From: Micromonospora inositola | GTDB taxonomy: Bacteria > Actinomycetota > Actinomycetes > Mycobacteriales > Micromonosporaceae | Direction of reading: 5' to 3' | Length of the DNA stretch: 64,000 bases | Assembly (NCBI RefSeq): GCF_900090285.1 | Contig: NZ_LT607754.1 | Coordinates: forward strand, 3,870,001 to 3,934,000 | Part shown: positions 1 through 45,024 of the stretch, piece by piece | Numbering within the stretch: the stretch's first letter is position 1 | How the letters are laid out: the number at the start of each line of letters is the position of its first letter | Position numbers and translations under genes: made by a program | Notes under the pieces: model-generated | What the model was told of the DNA's origin: nothing | What the model saw: the letters and a program-made list of their open reading frames with translations, nothing else | Databases searched by the model: none

Positions 1-1
1 C

Positions 2-2587
2 GCGGTCTACGGCTTCACCTCGATGCTGATCAACGTGCTCCGCGACGAGCAGCCCAGCCACATCGTGGTGGCGTTCGACGTCTCCCGCCGCTCCTTCCGC
101 ACCGACCGCTACGCGGAGTACAAGGCCGGTCGCAGCGAGACCCCGACCGACTTCAAGGGCCAGGTCAGCCTGGTCAAGGAGGTCCTCGCCGCGCTGCGCA
201 TCCCGGTGGTGGAGAAGGAGGGGTACGAGGCGGACGACGTCATCGCCACCCTCGCCTGCCAGGCCCGCGACCAGGGCATGCAGGTGCTGATCACCAGCGG
301 CGACCGGGACGCCTTCCAGCTCGTCGGCGACAGTGTCACCGTGCTCTACCCGCGCAAGGGCGTCTCCGACCTGGCCCGGATGGACCCGGCCGCGGTCGAG
401 GCGAAGTACGGTGTCGGCCCGCAGCGCTACCGCGACCTGGCCGCCCTGGTCGGCGAGACCAGCGACAACCTGCCCGGCATCCCCGGCGTCGGCCCGAAGA
501 CCGCGGCCAAGTGGATCAACACGTACGGCGGGGTGGAGGGCGTCATCGCCCGGGCCGACGAGATCAAGGGCAAGGCCGGCGACAGCCTGCGCGAGCGGCT
601 CGCCGACGTGATCCGCAACTACGAGATCAACTGCCTGGTCTCCGACCTGGAGCTGCCCGTCCGCCCCGAGGACGCCCGCTGGCAGGGCTGGGACCGGGAG
701 GCCGTGCACCAGGTCTTCGACACCCTGCAGTTCCGCATCCTGCGCGACCGGCTCTACCAGTACCTGGAGGCCGTGGAGCCGGAGGCCGAGGCCGGGTTCG
801 ACCTGACCGGGGAGGTGCTCACCGAGCCCGGCGCCCTCGCCGGCTGGCTGGAGACGCACGCCCCGGCCGGCACCCCGGTCGGGCTGGCGGTCAAGCTCGA
901 CACCGGCCCCAACCGGCGGCACACCGCCTCGGTGGCCGGGATGGCCCTGGCCACCGCCGCCGGTGCGGCCGCCTGGTTCGACCCGGCCACCCTCGACCCG
1001 GCCGACGAGGCTGCCCTGGCGAGCTGGCTGGCCGACGGCAAGCGGCCCAAGGTGCTGCACGACAGCAAGCCGGCGGTGCTGGCCTTCGCCGCGCACGGTT
1101 GGCAGCTGGAAGGCATCTCCCGGGACACCCAGATCGCCGCCTACCTGGCCCGGCCCGACCAGCGCTCCTACGACCTCGCCGACCTGGCGCTGCGCTACCT
1201 GCACCGCGAGCTGCGGGTCGACGCGCCGGAGACCGGCCAGCTCACCCTGGAGGGGCTGGGCGACGACGGCGCGGCCGAGCAGAACCTCATGCTCCAGGCC
1301 CGCGCCACCCTCGACCTGGCCGACGCGATCGACGCCGAGCTGTCCCGCGACGGCGAGCAGTCCCTCCGGCTGATGGCCGGGGTGGAGCTGCCGCTGATGC
1401 GGGTGCTCGCCGCCATGGAGCGCACCGGCATCGCCGCCGACACGCACTACCTGTCGGAGCTGGAGGCGCACTTCGCCGCCGAGGTGAAGGCCGCCGCGCA
1501 GGGCGCGTACGCGGCGGTCGGGCGGGAGTTCAACCTCGGCTCGCCCAAGCAGCTCCAGGAGATCCTCTTCAACGAGCTGGGTCTGCCGAAGACGAAGAAG
1601 ATCAAGACCGGTTACACCACCGACGCCGACGCCCTGCAGTGGCTCTACGCCCAGCAGCCGCACGCCGTACTGGAGCACCTGCTGCGCCACCGGGACGTGG
1701 CCAAGCTCAAGTCGACCGTCGACGGTCTGCTCAAGTCGGTCTCCGATGACGGCCGGATCCACACCACCTTCAACCAGACGGTGGCGGCCACCGGCCGGCT
1801 CTCCTCCACCGAGCCCAACCTGCAGAACATCCCCATCCGCACCGAGGAGGGCCGGCGGATCCGCCGCGCCTTCGTGGTGGGGGAGGGGTACGAATGCCTG
1901 CTCACCGCCGACTACAGCCAGATCGAGATGCGGATCATGGCGCACCTGTCGTCGGACGACGCGTTGATCGAGGCGTTCAACTCCGGCCACGACTTCCACG
2001 CCGCCACCGCCTCGTCGGTGTTCTCGGTCGAGGTCGGCGCGGTCAGCGCCGACCAGCGGCGCAAGATCAAGGCGATGAACTACGGCCTGGCGTACGGGCT
2101 GAGCGCGTTCGGCCTCTCCCAGCAGCTGGGGATCAGCGCCGAGGAGGCGCGTGGGCTGATGGAGAACTACTTCGCCGGCTTCGGCGGCATCCGCGACTAC
2201 CTGCAGGAGGTGGTCGCCCGGGCCCGCCAGGACGGCTACACCTCCACCATCCTCGGCCGCCGGCGTTACCTGCCCGACCTGGTCAGCGACAACCGGCAGC
2301 GCCGGGAGATCGCCGAGCGGATGGCCCTCAACGCCCCGATCCAGGGCTCTGCGGCCGACATCATGAAGGTCGCCATGCTGCACGTGGACAGCGCGCTGCG
2401 CGACGCCGGGCTGCGCTCCCGGATGCTGCTCCAGGTGCACGACGAGCTGGTCCTCGAGGTTGCCCCGGGCGAGCGGGAGACCCTGGAGGCCCTGGTGCGC
2501 AAGGAGATGGGCGAGGCGTACCCGCTGTCGGTGCCGCTGGAGGTCTCCGTCGGCGACGGCCGCGACTGGAACAGCGCCGACCACTGA
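2..2587 (+). CDS. polA: DNA polymerase I, 3' portion (5' end outside window)
   Basis: Replicative gap-filling and repair polymerase. The frame is open to the window edge (codons for AVYGFTS precede the first ATG at 23), so the true start lies upstream. Order: 5'-nuclease domain (to about base 900), exonuclease-like domain, then the polymerase domain with motif A DYSQIEMR near 1910, motif B RRKIKAMNYGLAYG near 2058-2100 and motif C VHDEL near 2435. The DxE metal-binding motif of the proofreading 3'-5' exonuclease is absent: the equivalent segment near 880-905 reads VGLAVKLDTGPN. The enzyme is therefore probably non-proofreading, as known for mycobacterial and Taq Pol I. A GC-rich hairpin follows directly downstream. 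Confidence 0.97.
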   Translation, partial: AVYGFTSMLINVLRDEQPSHIVVAFDVSRRSFRTDRYAEYKAGRSETPTDFKGQVSLVKEVLAALRIPVVEKEGYEADDVIATLACQARDQGMQVLITSGDRDAFQLVGDSVTVLYPRKGVSDLARMDPAAVEAKYGVGPQRYRDLAALVGETSDNLPGIPGVGPKTAAKWINTYGGVEGVIARADEIKGKAGDSLRERLADVIRNYEINCLVSDLELPVRPEDARWQGWDREAVHQVFDTLQFRILRDRLYQYLEAVEPEAEAGFDLTGEVLTEPGALAGWLETHAPAGTPVGLAVKLDTGPNRRHTASVAGMALATAAGAAAWFDPATLDPADEAALASWLADGKRPKVLHDSKPAVLAFAAHGWQLEGISRDTQIAAYLARPDQRSYDLADLALRYLHRELRVDAPETGQLTLEGLGDDGAAEQNLMLQARATLDLADAIDAELSRDGEQSLRLMAGVELPLMRVLAAMERTGIAADTHYLSELEAHFAAEVKAAAQGAYAAVGREFNLGSPKQLQEILFNELGLPKTKKIKTGYTTDADALQWLYAQQPHAVLEHLLRHRDVAKLKSTVDGLLKSVSDDGRIHTTFNQTVAATGRLSSTEPNLQNIPIRTEEGRRIRRAFVVGEGYECLLTADYSQIEMRIMAHLSSDDALIEAFNSGHDFHAATASSVFSVEVGAVSADQRRKIKAMNYGLAYGLSAFGLSQQLGISAEEARGLMENYFAGFGGIRDYLQEVVARARQDGYTSTILGRRRYLPDLVSDNRQRREIAERMALNAPIQGSAADIMKVAMLHVDSALRDAGLRSRMLLQVHDELVLEVAPGERETLEALVRKEMGEAYPLSVPLEVSVGDGRDWNSADH

Positions 2588-8845: not shown

Positions 8846-9102
8846 GCGGCTGCGGGACTTGGGTGACGAGCAGGGGCGCTCGCGGCGGCCGGTCAGCGCC
8901 TCCAGCGCGACCACGTCGGGCGCGCACGCCGGTGATGTCCGGGTGCTGCAGCCCTCGGTGCCGGGGGCGGCCGTCCCCTGAGGGGGGCCGCCGGCCCGGT
9001 CGGCCGCCGCGAGCGGCCTACGTCGAAAGCCTAGCTCCGTGAGATGTGGCACACAATGGGAATATCGAAGCCGATCACGGACCCTCCGTGGTCGGCCCGG
9101 AA

Positions 9103-9125
9103 CTGTCGGACCCGCGGCGTACGGT
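9103..9125 (+). promoter_or_regulatory. RecA-NDp/PafBC-type promoter of uvrB
   Basis: TGTC (9104-9107), G, then TACGGT (9120-9125) with exactly twelve bases between TGTC and TACGGT, matching TTGTCRGTG-N8-TAnnnT of mycobacterial DNA-damage promoters. The -10 box ends seven bases before the uvrB ATG, so transcription would start at or next to that codon. Confidence 0.75.
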
Positions 9126-9132
9126 TGATGTC

Positions 9133-11238
9133 ATGGCGCTCGACATTCCCCGGCTCGACGGCCGCTTCCAGGTCGTCAGCGAGTTCCAGCCGGCCGGCGA
9201 CCAGCCGGCGGCCATCGACGACCTTGAGCGTCGGGTTCGGCGCGGCGACCGCAACACCGTGCTGCTCGGCGCGACCGGCACCGGCAAGAGCGCCACCACC
9301 GCGTGGCTGGTCGAGCGGCTGCAACGGCCGACCCTGGTGCTCGCGCCCAACAAGACCCTCTGCGCCCAGCTGGCCAAGGAGTTCAGCGAGCTGCTCCCGC
9401 ACAACGCGGTGGAGTATTTCGTCTCCTACTACGACTACTACCAGCCCGAGGCGTACATCCCGCAGACCGACACCTACATCGAGAAGGACTCCTCGATCAA
9501 CGAGGAGGTCGAGCGGCTGCGGCACAAGGCCACCATGTCGCTGCTCACCCGGCGCGACACGATCGTGGTGGCGACGGTCTCGGCGATCTACGGCCTGGGC
9601 ACCCCGGAGGAATACCTCGAGCGGGCCGTCCGGGTCGCCGTCGGGCAGGAGCTCGACCGCGACCAGCTGCTGCGCCGGCTGGTCGACATCCAGTACACCC
9701 GCAACGACATGGCCTTCCAGCGGGGCACCTTCCGGGTCCGCGGCGACACGCTGGAGATCATCCCGGCGTACGAGGAGCTAGCGGTCCGGATCGAGCTCTT
9801 CGGCGACGAGGTGGAGAAGCTCTACTACCTCAACCCGCTCACCGGGGACGTGGTCCGGGAGGTCGACCACCTGCTGATCTTCCCCGCCACGCACTACGCG
9901 GCGGGGCCGGAGCGGATGGAGCGGGCGGTCCGCGACATCGAGGTGGAGCTGGGCGAGCGGCTGGCCGAGCTGGAGCGGCAGGGCAAGCTGCTGGAGGCGC
10001 AGCGGCTGCGGATGCGCACCACGTACGACATCGAGATGATGCGCCAGGTCGGCTTCTGCTCCGGCATCGAGAACTACTCCATGCACATCGACGGCCGGCT
10101 GCCCGGCAGCCCGCCGCACTGCCTGCTCGACTACTTCCCGGACGACTTCCTCACCGTGGTCGACGAGTCGCACGTGACCATCCCGCAGATCGGCGGCATG
10201 TACGAGGGCGACGCGTCCCGCAAGCGGATGCTCATCGACCACGGCTTCCGACTGCCGAGCGCCGCCGACAACCGGCCGCTGCGCTTCGACGAGTTCCTGG
10301 AGCGGGTCGGCCAGATGGTGTTCCTCTCCGCCACCCCCGGTCCGTGGGAGCTGGAGCAGGCCCAGGGGGAGTTCGTCGAGCAGGTCATCCGCCCGACCGG
10401 CCTGATCGACCCCGAGGTCGTCGTGAAGCCCACCAAGGGCCAGATCGACGACCTGATGCACGAGATCAAGCTGCGGACCGATCGGGACGAGCGGGTGCTG
10501 GTCACCACGCTGACCAAGAAGATGGCCGAGGACCTCTCGGACTACCTCCTGGAGAACGGCATCCGGGTGCGTTACCTGCACTCCGAGGTCGACACGCTGC
10601 GCCGGGTCGAGCTGCTGCGCGAGCTGCGCAAGGGCGACTACGACGTGCTGGTCGGCATCAACCTGCTCCGGGAGGGCCTCGACCTGCCCGAGGTGTCGCT
10701 GGTGGCCATCCTCGACGCCGACAAGGAGGGCTTCCTGCGCAGCGGCCGGTCACTGATCCAGACCATCGGCCGGGCCGCGCGTAACGTCAGCGGCCAGGTG
10801 CACATGTACGCCGACAAGATCACCCCGTCGATGGCGGGCGCGATCGACGAGACGAACCGGCGGCGGGCCAAGCAGATCGCGCACAACGAGGCGAACGGGA
10901 TCAGCCCGGAGCCGCTGCGTAAGAAGATCCACGACATCCTCGACGACATCTACCGCGAGGCCGAGGACACCGAGAACAGCCGGGTCGGCGGCGCGGCGCG
11001 GCAGCTCTCCAGGGGCAAGGCGCCGGTCAAGGAGACCCGCAGCCGCAGCCGGGGCGGCGCCACCCCGTCGCGGGAGGGGATGGCCCGGGCCGACCTGGCC
11101 AACCTGATCCAGGAGCTCAACGACCAGATGCTGGCCGCCGCGCGGGAGCTTCAGTTCGAGCTGGCGGCCCGGATCCGCGACGAGGTTTCCGACCTCAAGA
11201 AGGAACTGCGGGGGATGGACGCCGCCGGCGTGAGGTGA
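9133..11238 (+). CDS. uvrB: Excinuclease ABC subunit B
   Basis: DNA-damage verification helicase of nucleotide excision repair; it receives DNA from UvrA and recruits UvrC. 701 residues. Walker [12 protein letters not shown] lies near residue 47, the aromatic beta-hairpin [20 protein letters not shown] near 98, the DESH Walker B near 342, helicase motif TIGRAARN in the last third, and the UVR motif ([19 protein letters not shown]), which binds UvrC, at the C-terminus. The start at 9133 ([10 protein letters not shown]) is preferred over an ATG 29 codons upstream because the damage-type -10 box lies directly before it and would exclude the upstream codon from the transcript. Confidence 0.97.
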
Positions 11239-11254: not shown

Positions 11255-12082
11255 ATGGGCGCGTTCGAGGTCGTCGTCGGTCGGCCCGACGTCCGGCTGC
11301 GGCCGTTCGTCGACCGGTACGTCGGCTACCGCGAACGGGCGGAGCTGCCCCTGGTACGCCGGGAGGCGGCCGGCGCCTTCGTGGTGCTCATCCTCGGCTG
11401 GGGCGCCCCGCTGGACGTGGTCGACCCCCGGTGCGCCGAGCGCGGGGCGTACCGGGTCGACTCCTTCGTGGCCGGCACTTTCGACGCGTACTGCGTGACC
11501 CGCACGATCGGGGTGGGCATCGGGGTGGAGCTCCTGCTGGCGCCGTTGGCGGCCCGCCGGATCCTCGGCGTGCCCCTGGGCGAGTTCGCCAACCGGGCGG
11601 TGGCGGTGGAGCGGTTCCCCGGCGGGTGGCTCGACCGGCTCCGGTGCCGGCTGGCCGAGACGCCGGACTGGCCCGGGCGGTTCCGCCTGCTCGACGGCGC
11701 CGTGGCCGCACGCCTTGCCGCCGCCGAGCCGGTGGATCCCCGACTGACGTGGGCGTGGCGACGGCTGGCCGGCAGTGCCGGGCGGGTGGGCGTCGGCGCG
11801 CTCGCCGAGGAGCTCGGCTGGAGTCGCCGCCACCTGGCCACCGTGTTCCGGCGGGAGGTGGGGCTGCCCCCGAAGACCACCGCCCGGTTGCTCCGCTTCG
11901 CGGGAGCCCATGCGGCGCTGACCGGCGATCGGCCGGTTGGCGAGGGGGCCCCGGCCGGCACCGCCGAGCTGGCCGTCCGCTACGGCTACTACGACCAGTC
12001 CCACCTGATCCGGGAGTTCCGCGAGTTCGCCGGGGCGACGCCGGCCAGCCTGGCCGGGTCACATTCGTCCAATCCGGGCTGA
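11255..12082 (+). CDS. AraC-family transcriptional regulator
   Basis: 275 residues. The C-terminal third has the paired helix-turn-helix of AraC/XylS regulators (ALAEELGWSRRHLATVFRREVG, then AVRYGYYDQSHLIREFREFAG). The N-terminal part resembles the ligand/oligomerisation region of actinobacterial AraC proteins (DVRLRPFVDRYVGYRER). GGAGG precedes the ATG, 16 bases after uvrB, so some read-through from uvrB is possible. It is followed 24 bases later by a VOC-domain protein, its likely partner or target. The ligand is unknown. Confidence 0.88.
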   Translation: MGAFEVVVGRPDVRLRPFVDRYVGYRERAELPLVRREAAGAFVVLILGWGAPLDVVDPRCAERGAYRVDSFVAGTFDAYCVTRTIGVGIGVELLLAPLAARRILGVPLGEFANRAVAVERFPGGWLDRLRCRLAETPDWPGRFRLLDGAVAARLAAAEPVDPRLTWAWRRLAGSAGRVGVGALAEELGWSRRHLATVFRREVGLPPKTTARLLRFAGAHAALTGDRPVGEGAPAGTAELAVRYGYYDQSHLIREFREFAGATPASLAGSHSSNPG

Positions 12083-13533: not shown

Positions 13534-13666
13534 CCCGATCCGGACTGGTCAGCGGCAACCGCCCCGCGAGGGTGTCGGCGCGCGGCCACCGGGCCCGGCG
13601 GCCCCGATGCCCGTCGGGACCGGCGGCCGGCGCGTCGCACGCACGCTATCCGGCGGGTACGACAGC

Positions 13667-35398: not shown

Positions 35399-35422
35399 GT
35401 TGTCGTACCTCGGGGCTAAAGT
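35399..35422 (+). promoter_or_regulatory. RecA-NDp/PafBC-type promoter of uvrA
   Basis: TTGTCG (35400-35405), then TAAAGT (35417-35422), with twelve bases between TGTC and TAAAGT. The predicted transcription start near 35429 leaves a leader of about 88 bases before the uvrA GTG. Same geometry as upstream of uvrB, uvrC and recQ. Confidence 0.75.
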
Positions 35423-35516: not shown

Positions 35517-38459
<2,943 letters not shown>

Positions 38460-39744: not shown

Positions 39745-39767
39745 GTGTCGGGGGTGCGGACTAGGCT
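39745..39767 (+). promoter_or_regulatory. RecA-NDp/PafBC-type promoter of uvrC
   Basis: TGTC (39746-39749), G, then TAGGCT (39762-39767), with twelve bases between TGTC and TAGGCT. The -10 box ends seven bases before the uvrC GTG, so the mRNA should be leaderless. Confidence 0.75.
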
Positions 39768-39774
39768 TGTTCGC

Positions 39775-41712
39775 GTGGCTGACCCCTCGACCTACCGTCC
39801 CGCGCCCGGCACCATCCCGGAGTCGCCAGGGGTCTACCGCTTCCGCGACGGCACCGGCCGGGTCATCTACGTCGGCAAGGCGAAGAACCTGCGCAGCCGG
39901 CTCAACTCCTACTTCGCCGACCTGTGGGGCCTGCACCAGCGCACCCAGCAGATGGTCACCACGGCCGAGTCGGTCGACTGGGTCACCGTCGGCACCGAAG
40001 TCGAGGCGCTCCAGCTCGAATACACCTGGATCAAGCAGTACGACCCCCGGTTCAACGTCCGCTACCGCGACGACAAGTCGTACCCCTACCTGGCCGTCAC
40101 CCTCGACGAGGAGTACCCGCGGCTCCAGGTGATGCGGGGCGCCAAGCGCAAGGGGGTGCGCTACTTCGGGCCGTACTCGCACGCCTGGGCGATCCGCGAG
40201 ACGCTCGACCTGCTGCTCCGGGTCTTTCCGGCGCGGACCTGCTCGTCGGGGGTGTTCAAGCGGGCCGGACAGGTGGGTCGTCCCTGCCTGCTCGGCTACA
40301 TCGGCAAATGCTCCGCGCCGTGCGTCGGCAGCGTCTCCGCCGAGCAGCACCGCGACATCGTCAACGGGTTCTGCGACTTCATGGCCGGCCGCACCGACAC
40401 CATGGTCCGCCGGCTCGAGCGCGAGATGACCGAGGCCAGCGAGCAGTTGGAGTTCGAGCGGGCCGCCCGGCTCCGCGACGACGTCGCCGCCCTGCGGCGG
40501 GCGATGGAGAAGCAGACCGTGGTGCTCGGCGACGGTACCGACGCCGACGTGGTGGCCTTCGCCGACGATCCCCTCGAAGCCGCCGTCCAGGTGTTCCACG
40601 TCCGCGACGGCCGGGTCCGCGGCCAGCGCGGCTGGGTGGTGGAGAAGACCGAAGAACTGAGCACCGGCGACCTGGTGCACCACTTCTGCACCCAGGTCTA
40701 CGGCGGGGAGCAGGGCGAGGCCGACGTGCCCCGCGAGCTGCTCGTGCCCGAGCTGCCCGCCGACGCCGACGCGCTGGCCGAGTGGCTCACCAGCCACCGG
40801 GGCAGCCGGGTGTCGCTGCGGGTGCCGCAGCGTGGCGACAAGAAGTCGCTGCTGGAGACCGTGGAGCGCAACGCCAAGGACGCCCTCGCCCGGCACAAGC
40901 TCAAGCGGGCCGGTGACCTGACCACCCGCAGTAAGGCCCTCGACGAGATCAGCGACGCGCTCGGCATGCGGACGTCGCCGCTGCGCATCGAGTGCTTCGA
41001 CGTCTCGCAGATCCAGGGCACCGACGTGGTGGCCAGCATGGTCGTCTTCGAGGACGGGCTGCCCCGCAAGAGCGAATACCGCCGGTTCATCGTCCGGGGC
41101 GCCACCGACGACCTCTCGGCCATGTCCGAGGTGCTGCGCCGGCGCTTCGCCCGCTACCTGGACGCCCGCGCCGAGACCGGGGAGATCGGCGAGGAGACCG
41201 CCGGCGACCCGGACCGGCCCGGCATCGACCCGACCACCGGGCGGCCGCGCAAGTTCGCGTACCCGCCTCAGTTGGTGGTGGTCGACGGCGGCGCGCCGCA
41301 GGTCGGCGCCGCGGCGCAGGCCCTCGCCGAGCTGGGCATCGACGACGTGGCGCTGTGCGGGCTGGCCAAGCGGCTGGAGGAGGTCTGGCTGCCGGACGAC
41401 GAGTTCCCGGTCATCCTGCCGCGCACCTCCGAGGGGCTCTACCTGCTGCAACGGGTCCGCGACGAGGCGCACCGCTTCGCCATCACCTTCCACCGCCAGC
41501 GGCGCTCCAAGCGGATGACCGAGTCGGCGCTGGACAACATCCCCGGTCTGGGCGACGTACGCCGCAAGGCGCTGCTGCGGCACTTCGGCTCCCTCAAGCG
41601 GCTCTCCGTCGCCACCGTCGAGGAGATCACCGAGGTGCCCGGGGTGGGGAAGCGGACCGCCGAGGCGATCCTGGCCGCCCTGGACGAGGGCACCAAGTCG
41701 CCGCAGAGCTAG
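39775..41712 (+). CDS. uvrC: Excinuclease ABC subunit C
   Basis: 645-residue dual-incision nuclease of nucleotide excision repair. The N-terminal GIY-YIG domain is seen in [11 protein letters not shown] and [14 protein letters not shown]. The UVR motif that binds UvrB is near residue 225 ([19 protein letters not shown]). The RNase H-like 3' nuclease region ([33 protein letters not shown]) follows, and two helix-hairpin-helix motifs close the protein ([26 protein letters not shown]). The GTG at 39775 ([12 protein letters not shown]) is chosen over the GTG at 39745 because the damage-type promoter ends directly before it. Confidence 0.96.
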
Positions 41713-43141: not shown

Positions 43142-44995
43142 TCAGGCGGGTGCGTCGCCCTCGGCGAGCACGGCGAGGAGCTGGTCACCGTACTTGGCCA
43201 GCTTGTTCTCGCCGACGCCGTTGACCCGGGACAGCTCGGCCAGCGAGGCCGGCGCGTCGGTGGCGATCTGCCGCAGGGTGGCGTCGTGGAAGATGACGTA
43301 CGCGGGCACGCCCTGCTCCTTCGCGGTCGCCGCCCGCCAGGCGCGCAGCCGCTCGAAGACCGAGGTCGCGACCGGGTCCAGCTCGGCCATCACGGTGGCC
43401 GCGCCACGCGGTTTCGCCGACCGGCTGGCCGCGGGCTTCTCCGGCTCGCGGCGCATGGTCACGGTGCGCCGCCGGCCCAGCACCTCGGCGCTCGCCTCGG
43501 TCAGCGCCAGCGTGCCGTAGTCGCCCTCGACGGCGAGCAGGCCCTCGGCGAGCAGCTGCCGGACCACGCCGCGCCACTCGGCCTCGCGCAGCTCGGTGCC
43601 GATGCCGAAGACGGTCAGCGAGTCGTGACCGTACTGCGTGATCTTGTCGGTCCGCTTGCCGAGCAGGATGTCGACGCAGTGCCCGGCGCCGAACCGCTGG
43701 TTGCGTTCCCGGTCCAGCCGGAAGACGGTGGAGAGCAGCTTCTGCGCGGCGACCGTGCCGTCCCACGACTCCGGCGGGTTGAGGCAGGTGTCGCAGTTGC
43801 CGCAGGCCGGCGTCGCAGACTCGCCGAAGTACTCGAGGAGCTGGACCCGGCGGCAGCGGACCGTCTCGCAGAGCGCGAGCATCGCGTCCAGGTGGGCGGC
43901 GAGGTTGCGGCGGTGCGCGAGGTCACCTTCCGACGTCTCGATCATCTTCCGCTGCTGCACCACGTCCTGCAGCCCGTACGCCAGCCAGGCCGTGGACGGC
44001 AGGCCGTCCCGGCCCGCGCGGCCGGTCTCCTGGTAGTAGCCCTCGACGGACTTCGGCAGGTCCAGGTGGGCGACGAAGCGGACGTCCGGCTTGTCGATGC
44101 CCATCCCGAAGGCGATCGTGGCCACCATGACCAGGCCGTCCTCGCGCAGGAAGCGCTGCTGGTTGGCGGCACGGGTCGCCGCGTCCAGGCCGGCGTGGTA
44201 CGGCAGCGCGGGGATGCCGTTCTGCACCAGGAACTCGGCCGTCTTCTCCACCGAGGCGCGGGAGAGGCAGTAGACGATGCCGGCGTCGGCCGGGTGCTCG
44301 TCGCGGAGCAGGCTCAGCAGCTGCTTGCGCGGTTCCCGCTTCGGCACGATCCGGTACTGGATGTTGGGGCGGTCGAAGCTGGCCACGAAGTGCCGGGCGT
44401 CGGTGAGCCTGAGCCGGGTGGCGATCTCGGCCCGGGTGGCGCTGGTCGCGGTGGCGGTCAGGGCGATCCGCGGCACCCCCGGCCACCGCTCGTGCAGCAT
44501 CGAGAGGTTGAGGTAGTCGGGGCGGAAGTCGTGCCCCCACTGCGACACGCAGTGCGCCTCGTCGATCGCGAAGAGCGCGATGGTGCCGCGTTCCAGCAGT
44601 TGGAGGGTGGATCGGACGGCCAGCCCCTCCGGCGCGAGGTAGAGCAGGTCCAGCTCGCCGGCGACGAAGGCCGCCTCGACCCGCCGCCGCTCGGCCAGAT
44701 CCTGCGTCGAGTTGAGGAAGCCGGCCCGCACGCCGACCGCGGTGAGCGCGTCGACCTGGTCCTGCATGAGCGCGATCAGTGGGGAGACGACGACCGTGAC
44801 GCCGTCGCGGACCAGCGCGGGGATCTGGTAGCAGAGCGACTTGCCGCCACCGGTCGGCATCAGCACCAGCGCGTCGCCGCCGGCCACCACGTGGTCGACG
44901 ACCTCCTCCTGGAAGCCGCGGAAGGCGTCGTAGCCGAACACCCGCCGGAGCACCCGCAGCGCGTCCTCGGTCCGTAGATCGGTGGGGGAGACCAT
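43142..44995 (-). CDS. recQ: ATP-dependent DNA helicase RecQ
   Basis: 617-residue 3'-5' helicase for recombination and fork repair. Helicase motifs: [13 protein letters not shown] (Walker A), [19 protein letters not shown] (DEAH), SFDRPNIQY, and the arginine-finger region [15 protein letters not shown]. The RQC zinc cysteines (CRR, CGNCDTC) and a C-terminal HRDC domain ([23 protein letters not shown], quoted in part) give full-length RecQ. The ATG at 44995 starts six bases after a damage-type -10 box (TAGACT), implying a leaderless, damage-inducible mRNA like those of uvrB and uvrC. Confidence 0.96.
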
Positions 44996-45001
44996 CCGCG
45001 C

Positions 45002-45024
45002 AGTCTAGGAGCGTCCCCCGACAC
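45002..45024 (-). promoter_or_regulatory. RecA-NDp/PafBC-type promoter of recQ
   Basis: On the minus strand TGTC (45023-45020), G, then TAGACT (45007-45002), with twelve bases between TGTC and TAGACT. The recQ ATG begins six bases after the box. Confidence 0.75.

Follow-up and report, generated by a model that had tools for sequence, protein, structure and literature searches.

To judge by its upstream sequence, the uvrB gene of Micromonospora inositola is very probably transcribed from a PafBC-dependent promoter of the RecA-NDp type, and the predicted transcript would start at the ATG or one base before it, yielding a leaderless mRNA. The promoter reads TGTC-GGACCCGCGGCG-TACGGT (9104-9125, forward strand) and is followed seven bases further on by the ATG of uvrB (9133). 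The same layout is enriched across the genome and conserved at uvrB in other actinobacteria, and the genome encodes PafB, PafC and LexA.

In the mechanism proposed here, which takes the steps of PafBC action from work on M. smegmatis (PMC11804915), DNA damage would produce single-stranded DNA that binds the WYL domains of PafBC. PafB would then read the TGTC -26 element and PafC would hold domain 4 of the housekeeping sigma factor, and RNA polymerase would open the TAnnnT box and begin transcription on the start codon, 7-8 bases further on. Ribosomes would load this 5' start codon without a Shine-Dalgarno sequence, and uvrB, uvrC, recQ, polA and other genes would compose a regulon separate from that of LexA. 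From this arrangement we infer, for uvrB, binding of PafBC, induction by damage, the position of the transcript start and translation of a leaderless message; sequence and conservation both speak for the predicted regulon, in which uvrA does not share the leaderless layout. The promoter type itself is already known, as is the enrichment of DNA-metabolism genes among the leaderless transcripts of M. smegmatis.

Predicted damage-type promoters in the window

The window, that is, the whole stretch of 64,000 nt analysed here (M. inositola, NZ_LT607754.1, positions 3,870,001 to 3,934,000), contains five matches to TGTC-N12-TAnnnT, as opposed to the 0.66 expected from 100 shuffles (standard deviation 0.84, largest count 3). 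Besides uvrB, these matches lie ahead of uvrA, uvrC and recQ, and the fifth, which has no clear gene, may be a chance match (Table 1). An earlier note on this DNA had described the uvrB element as a RecA-NDp/PafBC-type promoter with its -10 box ending seven bases before the ATG, had considered the same TGTC-to-TAnnnT spacing at uvrA, uvrC and recQ unlikely to be accidental, and had seen no LexA-like palindrome at the four promoters. These claims are all borne out. PMC5656591 quotes the published consensus of LexA-independent P1/RecA-NDp promoters as tTGTCRgtg-8 nt-TannnT; its strong positions, namely TGTCR, the 12-base gap and TAnnnT, are all present at uvrB, and the weak positions around TGTCR (t....gtg) agree at one of four. 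The exact LexA palindrome (CGAAC-N4-GTTCG) does not occur within the window; allowing up to two mismatches there are 42 palindromes, compared with 41.3 by chance, and none of them falls in the promoters of uvrB, uvrA, uvrC or recQ.

Table 1. Features of the window discussed in the text (positions counted from the first base of the window).
Feature	Position	Strand	Basis and remarks
polA	1..2587	+	begins 112 bp before the window; its site lies outside the window
uvrB promoter, full extent with start codon	9103..9135	+	CTGTCGGAC-CCGCGGCG-TACGGT-TGATGTC-ATG
-26 element TGTC of the uvrB promoter	9104..9107	+	sequence; extended form CTGTCGGAC at 9103-9111; element and spacing kept in 25 of the 80 UvrB-related loci
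-10 box TACGGT of the uvrB promoter	9120..9125	+	sequence
uvrB, predicted leaderless, ATG 7 bases past the -10 box	9133..11238	+	Pfam UvrB, UvrB_inter, UVR; N-terminus resembles Hamadaea UvrB
Fifth TGTC-N12-TAnnnT match, no clear gene	13643..13664	-	pattern only
PafBC-type promoter of uvrA	35401..35422	+	TGTC-N12-TAnnnT match
uvrA, GTG with GGAG upstream, leader about 88 nt	35517..38459	+	Pfam; Shine-Dalgarno word
PafBC-type promoter of uvrC	39746..39767	+	TGTC-N12-TAnnnT match; 8 of 19 genomes have a leaderless uvrC layout
uvrC, GTG 7 bases past the -10 box	39775..41712	+	Pfam UvrC domains
recQ, ATG 6 bases past the -10 box	43142..44995	-	Pfam RQC, HRDC, RecQ_Zn_bind
PafBC-type promoter of recQ	45002..45023	-	TGTC-N12-TAnnnT match

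Counting the final T of the -10 box as -7 puts the predicted start of the uvrB transcript at 9132 or 9133, at the start codon or right beside it. No Shine-Dalgarno word of at least four bases is present upstream of the uvrB, uvrC and recQ starts, and the polA site, which ends 120 bp before the window, lies seven bases ahead of the polA GTG. The start of uvrA is likely GTG 35517, which makes it a leadered gene. The Shine-Dalgarno-free translation that the earlier note envisaged for excision repair does not extend to uvrA, with its leader and GGAG word. Directly downstream of uvrB lies a gene for an AraC-type regulator (11255-12082, forward strand).

The regulators are encoded elsewhere in the genome. 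PafC (HTH_PafC, WYL and WCX domains) adjoins PafB (WYL, WCX) at about 5.54 Mb; a 670-residue open frame had suggested a fused PafBC, and translation resolved it into separate adjacent reading frames for PafB and PafC. LexA is encoded as well, with a box 78 bases ahead of the chosen frame start and another before an IMS polymerase (dinB-like) gene, and the genome has 12 exact LexA boxes, all outside the window. The presence of PafB, PafC and LexA with its boxes thus indicates that two pathways coexist, as in mycobacteria.

Genome-wide enrichment and spacing to the start codon

Over the whole genome TGTC-N12-TAnnnT occurs 75 times, compared with 41 for the reversed pattern used as control; two of the 75 are copies of other sites near the contig ends, so that 73 are distinct. 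The site pairs involved (9968/6698836 and 13549/6703851) recur near both contig ends with offsets that differ by 1434 bases, and the assembly ends hence seem to share sequence with an indel. Long frames start at +6 (9 sites) or +7 (17 sites) past the end of the -10 box in 26 of the 73 sites, against a mean of 0.86 at other offsets (Poisson about 6e-22), in a scan from -40 to +100 that considered ATG/GTG frames of at least 80 codons and third-position GC of at least 0.80. Dropping the frame filter gives 27 ATG/GTG codons at +6/+7 (9 and 18), and we read the offset peaks at -23 and -2 as the motif's own letters. The -26 extension in this genome is mostly TGTCGG(A/T)C, rather than TGTCRGTG: a G directly follows TGTC in 25 of the 26 leaderless sites versus 29 of the 47 others, and the eighth base of the extension is C in 18 of the 26. 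Sites of the TTGAC-N18-TAnnnT type have a start at +6/+7 in 7 of the 36 cases examined (a sample made up of 16 of the 31 such sites from this genome and 20 of the 58 from Hamadaea), versus 23 of 50 TGTC(A/G)(G/T) sites in this genome (p = 0.013).

The genes behind all 29 sites with a start at +6 to +9 were scanned for families, and 13 of them look like genes of repair, recombination or replication: recA, tag, a DinG/YoaA-like helicase, a PcrA/UvrD-like protein, a DEDD-type exonuclease (whose frame is also similar to the UvrC N-terminus), an IMS polymerase, polA, an AlkZ-like glycosylase, a PD-(D/E)XK nuclease, an SMC/RecN-like protein, uvrB, uvrC and recQ. The count includes recA, even though its leaderless status is ambiguous. 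Behind TTGAC-N18-TAnnnT sites no repair gene was found among 20 scanned genes (10 from this genome, 10 from Hamadaea; Fisher p = 0.0003), a control that scanned 20 of the 29 genes found, accepted starts anywhere within 150 bases and not just at +6 to +9, and scored an NrdR-like gene as non-repair. The enrichment near repair genes that the earlier note had proposed to look for genome-wide is therefore present. The majority of sites are nonetheless not at known repair genes: 16 of the 29 genes have no recognised repair role (e.g. an MfpA-like pentapeptide protein, a TnpB-like protein, two YjbR proteins and a maltokinase N-cap), and ten scanned sites with longer leaders yielded one GyrB/ParE-type topoisomerase, one mycothiol-S-transferase (DinB_2) and eight genes without a repair family. 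The TnpB-like (OrfB_IS605) gene of this genome and an IS200-like Y1 transposase gene of Mycolicibacterium sphagni both lie behind leaderless TGTC-N12-TAnnnT sites, as if mobile elements used the damage promoter.

Conservation across actinobacteria and association with PafC

At 25 of 80 UvrB-related loci the motif was found together with a start in frame between +5 and +9; the offset is 6 or 7 in all 25, and none of the first 47 UvrB loci inspected carried it at another spacing only. All but one of the 25 belong to the 45 loci that carry the label of an Actinomycetota group; two of these 45 are too short upstream to be tested. The motif is present at uvrB in Hamadaea (Micromonosporaceae), Saccharothrix, Mycolicibacterium, Nocardia, Peterkaempfera, Planomonospora, Nocardioides, Arthrobacter, Streptomyces, Microbacterium and Acidimicrobiales, and it is missing from 19 of the 43 testable Actinomycetota-labelled loci, including those of Bifidobacterium, Corynebacterium, Rothia and Mobiluncus. 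A metagenome-assembled genome labelled Acidobacteria (L125:1263-3248) also has a leaderless site at uvrB, for which misbinning or transfer are possible. Across loci the stretch from the start to the GDQP core of UvrB ranges from 13 to 48 residues while the 6-7 base spacing stays constant, and the start codon therefore tracks the promoter, not the protein. This constancy bears on the suggestion that the promoter is indeed of the PafBC type and that the transcript starts elsewhere, leaving uvrB not truly leaderless, or that a longer form begins at an upstream GTG. The uvrB frame does stay open upstream as far as GTG 9046, in line with such a form, but the fixed spacing in 25 loci with changing N-termini and an ATG devoid of a Shine-Dalgarno word make this very unlikely.

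At recA, 16 of the 18 genomes scored (Hamadaea not among them) carry TGTC-N12-TAnnnT in the promoter, and in 5 of these 16 loci a start codon in frame follows at +6 to +8. In the genome studied here this start is a GTG at +7, 16 codons ahead of the classical ATG, and recA is probably leadered. In this genus (loci L227 and L228), Nocardioides, Peterkaempfera and Streptomyces oceani, a GTG or ATG in frame with recA sits 12-16 codons upstream of the classical ATG and 6-8 bases beyond the -10 box, and a leaderless, N-terminally extended RecA is a possible product in these organisms. For uvrC, the leaderless layout is found in 8 of 19 genomes, Peterkaempfera has the motif with a 36-base gap and the exact motif is absent from 10; in four of the latter (Saccharothrix, Mycolicibacterium, Actinotalea and Arthrobacter) a TAnnnT box can be seen by eye 6-7 bases before the uvrC start.

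The complete layout (TGTC-N12-TAnnnT-N6,7-RTG) occurs 553 times in 17 named genomes, a count that leaves out Planomonospora, against 62 with CTGT swapped in and 59 for the reversed pattern. This comparison speaks against an ordinary housekeeping (SigA) leaderless promoter, in which TGTC would be incidental and uvrB not inducible by damage. Leaderless starts are common, and the TTGAC-type sites that start at +6/+7 illustrate as much, but TGTC far outnumbers CTGT with the -10 box and the start held constant, and TGTC at N12 recurs at uvrB across orders. The lack of any sigma-70-like site in 8900-9300 points the same way, although shuffles predicted none either and it is thus weak as a test for a -35 box. 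A SigA promoter at uvrB is, on this evidence, extremely unlikely. In 15 genomes, TGTC-N12-TAnnnT as such totals 1512 versus 896 for the control, and leaderless sites total 591 versus 43, so that leaderless sites make up 548 of the 616 sites in excess, a rough ratio because in Mycolicibacterium, Nocardia and Arthrobacter the control gives more matches than the motif. A sample of 19 layout sites from 12 named genomes, less favourable to a repair regulon, included only five repair genes (a polA-type 5'-3' exonuclease, RecG, UvrC, an SbcD-like protein and an RNase_T exonuclease). Also in this sample is the Pup ligase gene of Nostocoides jenkinsii, whose leaderless PafBC-type site suggests a possible feedback on the proteasome/PafBC locus.

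Over a total of 296 genomes of the phylum, 261 of them outside the class of M. inositola, the layout numbers 1354 versus 121 for the control in the 35 genomes of the same class, 1273 versus 304 in 117 genomes of other classes with a strong PafC match (E up to 1e-15, a cut-off of our choice), and 889 versus 719 in 144 genomes with a weak PafC or none. The excess differs between strong and weak or absent PafC with a Mann-Whitney p of about 4e-18, which is overstated because the genomes are related. At least three times the control is reached in 34 of 35, 78 of 117 and 32 of 144 genomes, respectively; the last figure is what ordinary leaderless promoters would give, or PafC proteins missed because no more than 14 first-look candidates per genome were scored. 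Many of the matches listed for some other classes (e.g. genomes G088 and G241) read TGTCACACCC, a -26 extension unlike that of mycobacteria or of this genome. That another regulator reads the element instead of PafBC, for instance ClgR, which is reported to recognise the P1 motif in mycobacteria (Wang 2011, as cited and discussed in PMC5656591), would fit the departure of the -26 extension from the mycobacterial one, but the layout excess tracks PafC across the 296 genomes and we give this idea hardly any credence.

The PafBC-type layout extends to Streptomyces. S. oceani has 29 layout sites, of which 8 read TGTCAGTG and 11 TGTCRGTG; its uvrB locus was identified by sequence. Twelve of the 21 frames scanned out of these 29 are repair- or replication-like: dnaX, rarA/mgsA, alkZ, recD2, a uvrD-like gene, recA, an exonuclease/endonuclease-family gene, a radA-like domain set, uvrC, an O6-methylguanine methyltransferase gene, xseA and xseB. 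In the literature, a first motif search pointed to a lack of conservation of the M. smegmatis motif in S. venezuelae (PMC9380542); our evidence concerns S. oceani, for which the 29 sites rule out absence of the motif. Earlier papers report a RecA-NDp promoter at the UV-induced SCO6735 gene of S. coelicolor, and PMC5087735 cites its discovery at recA of S. rimosus; hence, the motif is not new to Streptomyces.

Predicted leaderless damage promoters and known systems

The comparative data lead us to suggest, as a reading only slightly better than even, that the PafBC regulon is old and mostly leaderless, and that the -26 element, the -10 box and the start codon form a single cassette, with the promoter moving along with the start of the frame. 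If so, selection would act on the coupling of damage sensing to translation free of Shine-Dalgarno sequences, and this would explain the enrichment of DNA metabolism among the leaderless transcripts of M. smegmatis. More generally, the PafBC-type damage response, studied mainly in mycobacteria, is here extended as a predicted repair regulon to a broad range of actinobacteria, Streptomyces included. The coupling of promoter and start provides a means of correcting the start codons of repair genes, and it raises the question of whether damage-response proteins are made by a route free of Shine-Dalgarno pairing.

Work on M. smegmatis has established both the consensus and the part played by PafBC (PMC5656591, PMC11804915, PMC6789036, PMC8223512); in that species the recA P1 promoter depends on PafBC and loss of pafBC abolishes P1-driven recA transcription (PMC5656591). 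The uvrB transcript is 37% lower in M. smegmatis without pafBC (PMC5656591), a drop that supports our explanation, although its modest size counts against it. As for leaderless transcription, 24% of M. smegmatis transcripts are reported as leaderless, with the DNA metabolism category enriched among them (PMC6448022), and the figure for M. tuberculosis is about a quarter (PMC3898074). In the latter, lexA (PMC2897130) and recX (PMC3062782) are leaderless, and for the RecA-NDp gene Rv1955 a leader of about 50 nt has been mapped (PMC2897130), which argues against a strict leaderless rule. A link between PafBC promoters and leaderless starts was not found in the accessible text of the literature searched, which included PMC5552922 (on Deinococcus), PMC2897130, PMC3062782 and PMC12649562, without supplementary tables of transcript starts.

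Set against known systems, the LexA/SOS regulon is a damage response of the same genome, but one that works through a repressor palindrome, of which there is none at the uvr genes and recQ of the window. Leaderless transcripts of mycobacteria share the start on the start codon, here predicted from sequence, and the accessible parts of the corresponding accounts (PMC3898074, PMC6448022, PMC2897130, PMC3062782) do not tie it to the PafBC promoter. The closest parallel to mycobacterial RecA-NDp (P1)/PafBC promoters lies in TGTC, the 12-base gap, TAnnnT, the recA and uvrB targets, PafB and PafC, and a parallel LexA regulon. The genome analysed here differs from them in its prevailing TGTCGG(A/T)C and in the many targets that start 6-7 bases past the -10 box, a trait unmentioned for mycobacteria in the text available from those sources. 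The Streptomyces RecA-NDp accounts, as far as the accessible text of PMC5087735 goes, deal with single genes and describe neither a repair regulon nor a leaderless layout; they nevertheless place the same promoter type outside the mycobacteria, at S. rimosus recA and at SCO6735, and for the latter damage induction has been shown.
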